This document shows positions 3,506-52,437 of a stretch of 64,000 nucleotides of DNA, in pieces. The DNA is taken from positions 1 through 64,000 of the forward strand of contig VGGR01000006.1 in NCBI GenBank assembly GCA_016868585.1, in the 5' to 3' direction. Position 1 is the stretch's first letter. Each line of letters starts with the position of its first letter. Made by a program: the position numbers and the translations under genes. Origin of the DNA: Bacteroidota bacterium. Lineage in GTDB: Bacteria > Bacteroidota > Bacteroidia > Chitinophagales > Chitinophagaceae. The notes under the pieces were generated by a model, which searched no databases, was not told where the DNA came from, and was given only the letters and a program-made list of their open reading frames with translations.

Positions 3506-4438
3506 ATGGATTCAATTTTATCACTGAAGCATTTAAGAAAACATTTCGAATCACAGAAAGCTGTGGATGACATAAGCCTTGAAATTGAACGCGGACAAAT
3601 TTTTGGTTTACTTGGTCCTAACGGAGCCGGGAAAACAACCTTAATCCGTATGATCACCGGCATTTTTTACCCTGATCAAGGTGAGATATTTTTTGAAGGT
3701 AAAAAGTTTGACCCGCTAATAGATGTGGCCAAGATTGGCTACATGCCGGAGGAAAGGGGGCTCTATAAAAAAATGAAAGTGGGAGAACAGGTTTTATATC
3801 TGGCTCAACTCAAAGGACTCCATAAACAAGAAGCAAAGAGAAAGATAGAAAACTGGTTCGGCAGATTTGGAATGGAAAGCTGGTGGGATAAAAAGGTAGA
3901 AGACCTCTCAAAAGGCATGGGACAGAAATTACAATTTGTAACCACGGTATTGCACGATCCTTCTTTAATTATTTTGGACGAACCATTTAGCGGATTAGAC
4001 CCGGTGAACAGCAATTTGATCAAAGACGAAATATTCAGATTGGCCCAAGGGGGGTCCACCATAATTTTCAGCACACACCGCATGGAGCAAGTAGAGGAGA
4101 TCTGCAATCATATTGCCCTTGTCAATAAAGGACAAAAAATCCTCGATAGCACGGTGCAAGAAGTGAAACAACAATATAAAAAGCATCAATACCTCATTAC
4201 AGGTCGCGGGTTGGATAAATTAGCCATGGAACAGGCGCCCTTTACCCCAGTGAGTCAAAAAGATAATTCGCTGCTTATCCAAATAGCTGCCCAACCCAAC
4301 TCTTCCACTGTACTGCGTTTTTTACTGGATCAACAGGTAGAGATCACCGCCTTTCAGGAGCAGCTACCCAGCCTGAATGATATATTTATTCAATCGGTAG
4401 GAAATACACCCACTGCTCGCACATTCGAAAAAAATTAA
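3506..4438 (+). CDS. ABC transporter ATP-binding protein (NatA-like)
   Basis: 310 aa nucleotide-binding subunit. Walker A is GPNGAGKTT (about residue 38), the ABC signature is the variant LSKGMGQK (about residue 135), and Walker B is LIILDEPFSGLDP followed by a switch histidine in STHRMEQ. A C-terminal extension of about 80 residues resembles the DUF4162-type tail of NatA-like exporters. It pairs with the permease that starts 5 bp downstream, so the two form one exporter at the inner membrane. The NatA family includes Na+ and drug exporters; the substrate here cannot be read from sequence. Confidence 0.93.
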   Translation: MDSILSLKHLRKHFESQKAVDDISLEIERGQIFGLLGPNGAGKTTLIRMITGIFYPDQGEIFFEGKKFDPLIDVAKIGYMPEERGLYKKMKVGEQVLYLAQLKGLHKQEAKRKIENWFGRFGMESWWDKKVEDLSKGMGQKLQFVTTVLHDPSLIILDEPFSGLDPVNSNLIKDEIFRLAQGGSTIIFSTHRMEQVEEICNHIALVNKGQKILDSTVQEVKQQYKKHQYLITGRGLDKLAMEQAPFTPVSQKDNSLLIQIAAQPNSSTVLRFLLDQQVEITAFQEQLPSLNDIFIQSVGNTPTARTFEKN

Positions 4439-50658: not shown

Positions 50659-52437
50659 ATGGATCGTTTTATAGTTTCTGCCCGTAAGTACAGGCCACAG
50701 CTGTTTGATTCGGTTGTGGGACAGGAGCATGTTACAACCACATTAAAAAATGCAATTCGAAATCAGCAGCTGGCACATGCATTTTTATTTTGCGGACCCC
50801 GAGGAGTAGGTAAGACCACCTGTGCCCGTATTATGGCCAAAACGATCAACTGCCAAAATCCCACCAAAGAGGGTGAAGCATGTAATCAATGTAGTAGCTG
50901 TGTGTCTTTTAGAGAGAGTGGTTCTATCAATTATTTTGAGCTGGATGCAGCTTCCAATAACTCTGTGGATGATATTCGCACGCTTACCGAACAGGTTCGA
51001 TTTACCCCGCAAGGAGGTCGATATAAGGTATATGTGATTGACGAGGTACACATGCTCTCTACGCTTGCCTTTAATGCATTCTTAAAAACATTAGAAGAGC
51101 CCCCACCCTATGCTATTTTTATTCTGGCTACTACAGAAAAACATAAGATACTTCCTACCATTCTCAGTCGTTGTCAGATTTTTGATTTTAAAAGAATAAC
51201 CACTGCAGATACCGTAGCACATCTTGAAGGTATTTGCAAAAAAGAAAAAATCAAGGCAGAAAGACCCGCTTTACAGATCATTGCACAAAAAAGTGAAGGG
51301 TGCATGCGGGATGCCCTTAGTTTGCTGGATAAAATTGTCAGTTTCACCAATGGATCGGTAGATTACACACAAACAGTAGAACACTTAAATATTTTGGATG
51401 AAGATTATTATTTCCGCTTCATTCATTGCCTGCAAACCCAGGATCTTGCGCAGGCACTTTTATTGTACGATCAAATCAATCAAAAAGGATTCGAAGGCGA
51501 TTTATTTATCAATGGCATGGCTGAGTTTGCACGAAACTTACTGGTTTGTCAGGATGCAAAGACCATAGCTTTATTGGATGTGGTAGAATCCTTCAAAGAC
51601 AAATACAAGGAAACGGCAAAAGCCTGTTCCCCCCCTGTGTTGGTGAGTTTGTTGAATATATTGAATGAAGCAGCACTAAACTATAAGGCCGCGCGCAATA
51701 AAAGATTGTTTGTAGAATTGACGCTGATAAAAATTTGTTACCTGGAGCAGGCCCTGCGCATAACATCAGGAGAGCCAACTCTCTCAAAAAAAAAAATAGT
51801 TGAATCCCCTATCGGATTTAGGGTCAGTCCCATTCTTCCTTATTCCCCAGTGTCGTCTACAAAATCTGTAGCCCCCGCTCCGGTTAACCCAATAATCACT
51901 ACTTCTGCAAGTGCCAAATTGGTGATAGAAACACCTGTTGAGCCAATTCACTCCGTTCCCAATGAAAAAAAAGGCCAACCCGGCTCTCCAAGACTCAGCG
52001 CCCTATCCAAAATCCGAGAACAATTCAAGCAAACCGGTGGGCCTGGATCAGTAGAAGAAAAACAGCTTGAGGAATCTTCTTTACAAAAGGCTTGGCAGCT
52101 ATACACGCAACAGCTTAAAGACGCAAAAAATCCGGCTGCTCAACCTTTTGACTCGGCAAACTTGCTCATTATTGATGCTACCAGTTTTGAAGTAATAACG
52201 GCCAATAATATCGAACAGCGGTTTATTGAACAAGAAAGAAATAAACTGTACGCTTTCCTAAAAGAGAGATTGGCAAATAAAAACCTCCAGTTCAGTGTTA
52301 TTACCGATGAACAAAAAGGGGCCCCCCTTCCCTCTGAGGGAACCCTGAGCTCCAAAGAGCGTTATCAGGAATTGATTAAGCGTTACCCGCTGATCCAGGA
52401 ATTGAAAGAACGATTGAAGCTTGACCTGGATTACTAA
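50659..52437 (+). CDS. dnaX: DNA polymerase III subunit gamma/tau
   Basis: 592 aa clamp-loader subunit. Walker A GPRGVGKTT is near residue 45, zinc cysteines C...CNQCSSC follow, and the DEVHMLS Walker B and LSRCQIFDF sensor are present. AAA+ domains I-III end near residue 370. At residues 376-380 an uninterrupted run of 11 A (51786-51796) encodes SKKKI. Loss of one base gives TAG at once and gain of one gives TGA two codons later. This looks like a programmed slippage site making a short gamma form. Beyond it lies the tau-specific tail. Confidence 0.96.
   Translation: MDRFIVSARKYRPQLFDSVVGQEHVTTTLKNAIRNQQLAHAFLFCGPRGVGKTTCARIMAKTINCQNPTKEGEACNQCSSCVSFRESGSINYFELDAASNNSVDDIRTLTEQVRFTPQGGRYKVYVIDEVHMLSTLAFNAFLKTLEEPPPYAIFILATTEKHKILPTILSRCQIFDFKRITTADTVAHLEGICKKEKIKAERPALQIIAQKSEGCMRDALSLLDKIVSFTNGSVDYTQTVEHLNILDEDYYFRFIHCLQTQDLAQALLLYDQINQKGFEGDLFINGMAEFARNLLVCQDAKTIALLDVVESFKDKYKETAKACSPPVLVSLLNILNEAALNYKAARNKRLFVELTLIKICYLEQALRITSGEPTLSKKKIVESPIGFRVSPILPYSPVSSTKSVAPAPVNPIITTSASAKLVIETPVEPIHSVPNEKKGQPGSPRLSALSKIREQFKQTGGPGSVEEKQLEESSLQKAWQLYTQQLKDAKNPAAQPFDSANLLIIDATSFEVITANNIEQRFIEQERNKLYAFLKERLANKNLQFSVITDEQKGAPLPSEGTLSSKERYQELIKRYPLIQELKERLKLDLDY
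51786..51796 (+). promoter_or_regulatory. A11 slippage tract within dnaX
   Basis: Eleven consecutive A residues within the reading frame at codons 376-380. Both shifted frames stop within about three codons (TAG at 51797-51799 for a shortened run; TGA at 51800-51802 for a lengthened run). The position right after domain III matches where other bacteria shorten DnaX by frameshift or transcript slippage. Confidence 0.7.

Follow-up and report, generated by a model that had tools for sequence, protein, structure and literature searches.

The importance of the short clamp-loader subunit gamma has long been debated. Larsen et al. (2000) reportedly found transcriptional slippage on a run of nine A's (A9) in dnaX of Thermus thermophilus. 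According to the accessible text of PMC1088944 and PMC5009743, gamma arises there from mRNAs with extra or missing A's. E. coli dnaX uses a -1 programmed ribosomal frameshift at A_AAA_AAG, with a Shine-Dalgarno-like sequence and a stem-loop, as outlined in sections of PMC3711429 and PMC5009743. Two-ORF dnaX genes were collected by Antonov et al. in 2013; the accessible part of that paper (PMC3711429) gives 17 genes of 12 genera, nine with A10, as well as three Chlorobi-type dnaX genes with A7-A9, and takes the occurrence of both directions within one gene family as a sign of transcriptional realignment. The available sections of PMC5009743 also describe a Roseiflexus IS630 element in which a stem-loop stimulates transcriptional slippage on U5C5, with deletions only.

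Here we describe dnaX in a 64,000-nucleotide stretch of Chitinophagaceae DNA (contig VGGR01000006.1), the whole of which we call the window. We consider it highly probable, judging from the nucleotide and protein sequences, that an A11 run in this gene is a programmed transcriptional slippage site of the Thermus type. The gene and the mechanism are of a known kind, represented by Thermus and by the two-ORF dnaX genes in the accessible part of PMC3711429. A search of the literature on dnaX slippage, frameshifting and readthrough, which covered titles and abstract openings and had most subscription journals outside its coverage, returned no report of class-wide conservation with repeated two-way reversal, of an abutting hairpin, or of the UAG form described below.

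A probable slippage run at the gamma/tau boundary

The window protein was identified as DnaX by NCBIfam NF011531 (E 1.3e-209) and TIGR02397 (E 1.7e-131). Its conserved N-terminal part extends to residue 360 by TIGR02397 and to residue 364 by Pfam domain III, and residues 5-361 can be aligned with gamma/tau chains of known structure (1jr3 and 3glh among them). The run lies just beyond (Table 1). Across it the gene reads TCA AAA AAA AAA ATA GTT GAA, encoding S376, K377-K379, I380, V381 and E382.

Table 1. Features of dnaX in the window and of its putative slippage run
Feature	Position	Strand	Basis
dnaX, clamp-loader subunit gamma/tau, 592 aa; tau is the full frame	50659..52437	+	ORF, profile matches
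Segment common to tau and predicted gamma, codons 1-379	50659..51795	+	ORF, computed product ends
Predicted RNA hairpin GGAGAG-CCAA-CTCTCT with a 6-bp stem whose outermost pair is G-U, separated from the run by one base	51769..51784	+	Folding
A11, putative slippage run, third base of codon 376 to first base of codon 380	51786..51796	+	Sequence; kept in relatives
TAG reached on loss of one A, product 379 aa	51797..51799	+	Frame computation
TGA reached on gain of one A or ribosomal -1 shift, product 381 aa	51801..51803	+	Frame computation
Tau-only C-terminal part, including stop codon	51797..52437	+	ORF; homologous tails in the recoded frame of 70 of 71 reversed-polarity relatives

The original prediction, made from the letters of the window, placed an A11 in frame at codons 376-380, with an immediate TAG if one A is lost and a TGA two codons on if one is gained. 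Frame computation gave exactly these outcomes and the two predicted product lengths; the short products would end in SKKK or SKKKNS. The interval 51784-51802 assigned to the site holds the run and the TAG and falls one base short of the end of the TGA. The short products had been predicted to end right after domain III, and both off-frame stops lie about 15-20 residues past its end.

The window resembles Thermus dnaX in having an unbroken in-frame A run of at least nine at the gamma/tau boundary, tau in frame, and nearby stops in both other frames. It differs in having A11 rather than A9, in belonging to another phylum, and in the predicted hairpin directly 5' of the run. The Thermus type comes with mRNAs of differing A number and a gamma:tau ratio of about 1:1, whereas the window is known from sequence alone. 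With E. coli dnaX it shares the same two products and the same position in the gene. It differs in lacking both the A_AAA_AAG heptamer, since a T follows the run and only A_AAA_AAA is present, and a downstream stem-loop. Relative to the two-ORF genes in the accessible part of PMC3711429, the polarity of the window is opposite. A second, shorter run, A8 at 51965-51972, occurs in the tau part of the gene, and runs of 7-8 are found thereabouts in some relatives only.

Conservation of the run among relatives

We compared 300 dnaX loci, reduced to 286 distinct sequences by dropping 14 duplicates and to 284 by dropping two truncated genes. The sampling was non-random: named loci are the best matches to the window protein, and loci of other classes were picked by family. 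Bacteroidales loci added later, as best matches to locus L085 or for their short frames, stand outside the counts of 214 and 70 given here. An unbroken run of 9-12 A occupies the homologous place in 192 of 214 distinct dnaX genes of class Bacteroidia, in 43 of 44 genes in the sample of the window's own genus and family, and in 31 of 70 genes from other classes of the phylum. The run is found in all three codon phases, and the encoded peptides vary (KKK, EKKN, LKKN and others). Niastella yeongjuensis DSM 17621 (L050) has an A9 with tau encoded. AAG makes up 26% and AAA 74% of the other lysine codons in 61 Chitinophagaceae dnaX genes. The original prediction had named runs broken by AAG as evidence against the site, and the relatives compared do not bear this out; given an unbroken run in all phases, differing peptides and 26% AAG elsewhere, what is kept is the nucleotide run itself.

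Run lengths cluster at 9-11 A, with only five of the 214 class members having 7 or 8. These lengths bear on the alternative that gamma comes from a -1 shift of the ribosome on A_AAA_AAA, in the manner of E. coli dnaX, and that the run is long by accident. We regard this as unlikely. The A11 does include A_AAA_AAA, and two relatives (L057 and L063) have A8 followed by G and thus A_AAA_AAG; the heptamer, however, needs only seven A's, a length to which very few class members come down.

Could the run be a chance feature of an AT-rich, lysine-rich linker with no programmed role? The only A11 in the window's own genome (1.77 Mb, both strands) is the dnaX run, and runs of at least 8, 9 and 10 A number 455, 53 and 3. 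A first-order Markov estimate from the window predicts about 418, 146 and 51, and 18 for A11 or longer. Runs of at least nine are thus rarer than estimated, and since about 18 A11 runs would be expected, the length of the run alone is not beyond chance. The original prediction that an A11 with stops in both other frames is unlikely to be neutral therefore stands for conservation in relatives, which is beyond chance in the sequences compared, and falls for length alone. The fall from A8+ through A9+ to A10+ is gradual, in relatives too, and on this ground we rejected an abrupt slippage limit between A9 and A10 across the genome. Exactly one A10+ run occurs in 7 of 58 genomes (G002, G005, G006, G012, G016, G022 and G034), and in all seven it is in dnaX, as placed by coordinates in five and, in G012 and G034, inferred from a count of one and an A10 in their dnaX.

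A linker without a programmed role would fit the second A8 of this gene, the 74% AAA among lysine codons in the family's dnaX, and the 20 of 29 later Bacteroidales genes that have no run at this place. We nevertheless give it almost no credence, given the unbroken runs in different codon phases, the rarity of runs of at least ten genome-wide and the location of single ones in dnaX, the excess of off-frame stops, and the 71 relatives that require recoding (both below).

No run of at least nine was found at the usual place in 22 of the 214 class members. Four of the 22 (L066, L068, L072 and L102) have an A11 displaced about 65-85 codons downstream, at about codons 441-456, inside the dnaX frame. 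In the later Bacteroidales sample of 29 loci, the best matches to L085, a run of at least nine lies near the place in 9, further on in 1 and nowhere in 19, which makes the trait patchy in that order; one of the 29, L327, comes from genome G285, whose gene was already counted as L126. Tau is in frame with no run of at least nine near the boundary in L069, L088, L092 and 18 tau-encoded loci among L304-L331. In four f30 genomes (L125, L126, L137 and L149) dnaX is of the Bacteroidales type, encodes tau in frame and lacks the run. We built a tree from 245 N-terminal sequences with FastTree, leaving out other-class members without a run of nine and leaving branch supports aside; on it, presence of the run changed at least eight times. 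The tree is unrooted, so gains and losses of the run look alike.

Stops in the other two frames

Stops close behind the run were compared with other gene positions in 149 tau-encoded sequences with a run of at least nine, and with synonymous recodings. In 61 Chitinophagaceae, a stop within 9 nt after the run was found in 44 sequences against 12.0 expected from other gene positions in the lost-A frame, and in 59 against 15.4 in the gained-A frame. Both stops are present within 9 nt in 43 of the 61, where other gene positions give 1.9 and synonymous recoding 10.6.

With the amino acids and the codon straddling the end of the run kept constant, the gained-A stop is still far above expectation in Chitinophagaceae (59 of 61 against 19.8), and the excess of the lost-A stop mostly disappears (44 against 39.2). 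Conservation of both out-of-frame stops had been named as a check, and in this family the excess holds for the gained-A stop and hardly for the lost-A stop. We rejected selection on both off-frame stops in Chitinophagaceae, as the straddling codon explains most of the lost-A stop. In the rest of the class (n=68), both are in excess within 15 nt over synonymous recodings (47 against 26.0 for lost-A, 65 against 39.2 for gained-A). Kinship among the sequences inflates all of these stop figures. The best-kept off-frame stop, TGA, is the one that a ribosomal -1 shift would reach, which speaks for frameshifting on the ribosome; it is also the stop reached when one A is gained.

Gamma encoded, tau by frame change

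In 71 relatives the run is kept and the zero frame stops within a few codons, such that gamma is encoded and tau requires a frame change. The window itself is not of this reversed type, as its tau is in frame, unlike that of the 71. Read in the recoded frame, the tails are as long as those of tau, and 70 of 71 have a match to one with E below 1e-5. This match implies that tau is under selection in these relatives and that the frame change must be used. The argument for slippage is carried by the window's own family and by these recoded tails.

Tau is reached by one added nucleotide (or a ribosomal -1 shift) in 64 of the 71 and by the loss of one in 7. The direction needed in these seven is opposite to that of a ribosomal -1 shift and argues against that route. 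As insertions and deletions are both needed among dnaX relatives, the gene family shows the two directions that the accessible text of PMC3711429 treats as a sign of transcriptional realignment. As in the two-ORF genes described there, poly-A marks the gamma/tau boundary of these relatives, the zero frame encodes gamma, and tau takes a frame change. In the accessible part of that paper the genes all use one direction (-1 at the DNA level), whereas both directions and both polarities occur here.

Parsimony on the FastTree tree of 245 sequences requires at least 19 changes of polarity while the run persists, and flips seen in single genomes could partly be homopolymer assembly errors. Several near relatives with similar flanks have opposite polarity and are one A apart (L082/L087, L131/L133, L263/L266 and L073/L083). 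Such one-A changes show that the run mutates, and raise the alternative of slippage at the DNA level, in which replication indels at a contingency locus would switch single cells between tau and gamma. Gamma-encoded species, however, such as 25 insertion-type f24 genomes, keep the tau tail intact in the recoded frame, and a contingency locus leaves the off-frame stops unexplained. Tau is essential in E. coli, so a heritable tau-off state should not spread. We therefore hold this alternative to be very improbable.

Many lineages thus keep a mutable homopolymer in an essential gene, switch the encoded product at least 19 times and retain both frames, which suggests that both gamma and tau matter, in comparable amounts. 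Without recoding, gamma-encoded species would have no tau, and near relatives one A apart are natural experiments. In many Bacteroidota (for example f24 genus g40), annotations may show dnaX as a short protein or split it into two genes.

RNA structure around the run

Folding predicts a hairpin that abuts the run on its 5' side in the window (Table 1). In a 30-nt fold it reaches -6.8 kcal/mol (z -2.15), which 7 of 200 shuffles equal or better, and at -6.1 kcal/mol it is reached in 1.7% of 60 synonymous recodings. The sequence AGGAGAG, about 12 nt ahead of the run, is a candidate for the Shine-Dalgarno-like stimulator that the E. coli type has about 10 nt upstream, but most of it falls within the 5' arm of this predicted hairpin.

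Hairpins were tested in 223 sequences with a run of at least nine. An abutting hairpin was defined as one that closes 0-2 nt ahead of the run and has -5 kcal/mol or lower. Its frequency, averaged over 41 clusters of the class outside Chitinophagaceae, is 0.50, compared with 0.08 elsewhere in the gene and 0.22 among synonymous recodings (t -4.1). The window thus has such a predicted hairpin, as do roughly half of the class clusters outside its family. Within Chitinophagaceae these hairpins do not significantly exceed synonymous recodings (t -0.5 over 4 clusters, with 15% of 61 sequences past the 5% point), and perfect abutting stems reach only 21% (null 4%). Other classes showed no excess of abutting hairpins by stem counts, against other positions or against synonymous recodings.

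The 50 nt before the run fold at means of -11.1 and -11.2 kcal/mol, against -5.7 to -9.4 kcal/mol upstream in the gene. Compared with dinucleotide shuffles, Chitinophagaceae have a mean z of only -0.15 for these 50 nt and -0.62 for the last 30 nt; the corresponding values for the rest of the class are -1.02 and -1.38. Kinship among the sequences inflates the z values. In alignment A1, which holds 31 of 32 f24 sequences with the GGAG end (L164, whose hairpin is one base off, was left out), the stem hardly varies, and its single double change was matched by 26 of 500 shuffles; no covariation was found in 11 other sequences. We rejected strict covariation of the hairpin as weak.

Downstream of the run no structure was detected over 192 class members (mean z -0.15 to -0.50) or in the window (z -0.68; 48 of 200 shuffles as good), and a downstream stimulatory structure was rejected. 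The lack of a downstream stem-loop in both counts further against ribosomal -1 frameshifting. Overall, the sequence evidence favors slippage by RNA polymerase over the E. coli ribosomal type. The original prediction of a slippage site that makes a short gamma had cited both, and it finds support as the transcriptional type, with the ribosomal route the less likely.

A proposed mechanism

From the run, the stops, their conservation and the recoded tails, each read directly in the sequences, we infer a slipping polymerase, a gamma protein made in some ratio to tau, and a part for the hairpin. RNA polymerase copying the T11 template would add or drop A's and give a mixed population of dnaX mRNAs. 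Those with 11 A's, plus or minus multiples of three, would be translated into tau, and the others would run at once into TAG or TGA and yield a gamma ending just past domain III. A nascent-RNA hairpin at the start of the run might help, beside the all A-T RNA-DNA hybrid, in the manner of a terminator with A in place of U. The hairpin would be unwound while a ribosome reads the run, yet could form behind RNA polymerase once the hybrid consists of A-T pairs throughout, as has been put forward for the Roseiflexus element.

The arrangement recalls the Roseiflexus IS630 element in the predicted nascent-RNA hairpin 5'-adjacent to the slippage run. It differs from the element, as presented in the available sections of PMC5009743, in having A9-A12, in that slippage is expected also without a hairpin, and in mostly needing insertions. 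More tentatively, and with somewhat less than even probability, hairpin and A run may form one device, a terminator with A's for U's, that sets both the frequency and the direction of slippage. Such a device could be a widespread and perhaps ancient switch between gamma and tau in Bacteroidia, with either of the two as the encoded product, and parts of Bacteroidales may have replaced it by in-frame UAG readthrough or a +1 frameshift. This reading fits the seven relatives that need the loss of a base, which all have abutting hairpins (-5.4 to -14.3, mean -10.7 kcal/mol) and represent few lineages, with the stem of L164 common to tau-encoded kin. The mean hairpin among 55 insertion-type relatives of the class is -6.0 kcal/mol.

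Other forms of dnaX in Bacteroidales

The run is missing from two Bacteroidales loci, L085 and L093, in which TAG closes the gamma frame and about 250 open codons follow in that frame. We assembled 31 distinct sequences of this form, L093 and 30 of genus g389 (L085, L303 and L334-L361, nearest to L085); L085 is identical over the query to L333 of genome G945. The codon at the end of gamma is an in-frame TAG in 31 of 31, never TAA or TGA, and each of the tails has a tau-tail match with E below 0.01. After the TAG comes a close variant of the 27-nt element ATW GCA AGR NCG CCN NNN GCG GAR CAY; in L085 the site lies at 3587-3616. Pairwise identity over these 30 nt ranges from 0.80 to 0.92, compared with 0.30-0.47 in the flanks, and the GCA, NCG and GCG codons do not vary at their fourfold sites in the 31 sequences. 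The element was found at dnaX, with at most two mismatches in its first 24 nt, in 40 of 79 g389 genomes and in 0 of 70 genomes of the family's other genera.

TAG also ends 6 of the 31 tau frames and 3 of 17 other nearby mechanical ORFs of at least 200 aa. Because TAG is used as a terminator there, UAG is probably not simply reassigned. From its sequence, tau of the UAG form looks like a product of programmed UAG readthrough. No Rfam families were detected at gathering scores in L085, L345, L001 and L188.

In five further loci (L075, L094, L326, L372 and L373) the tau tail, identified in each by a match to other tau tails (E below 1e-4), lies in the +1 frame. These loci have in common AGG CAA TCR C shortly before the gamma stop, and perhaps undergo programmed +1 frameshifting. 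Among 19 dnaX genes picked for short frames, 16 have A9-A11 near the gamma end, two have the AGG CAA motif and one (L380) has neither. One of the two with the AGG CAA motif also has an A10 further on.
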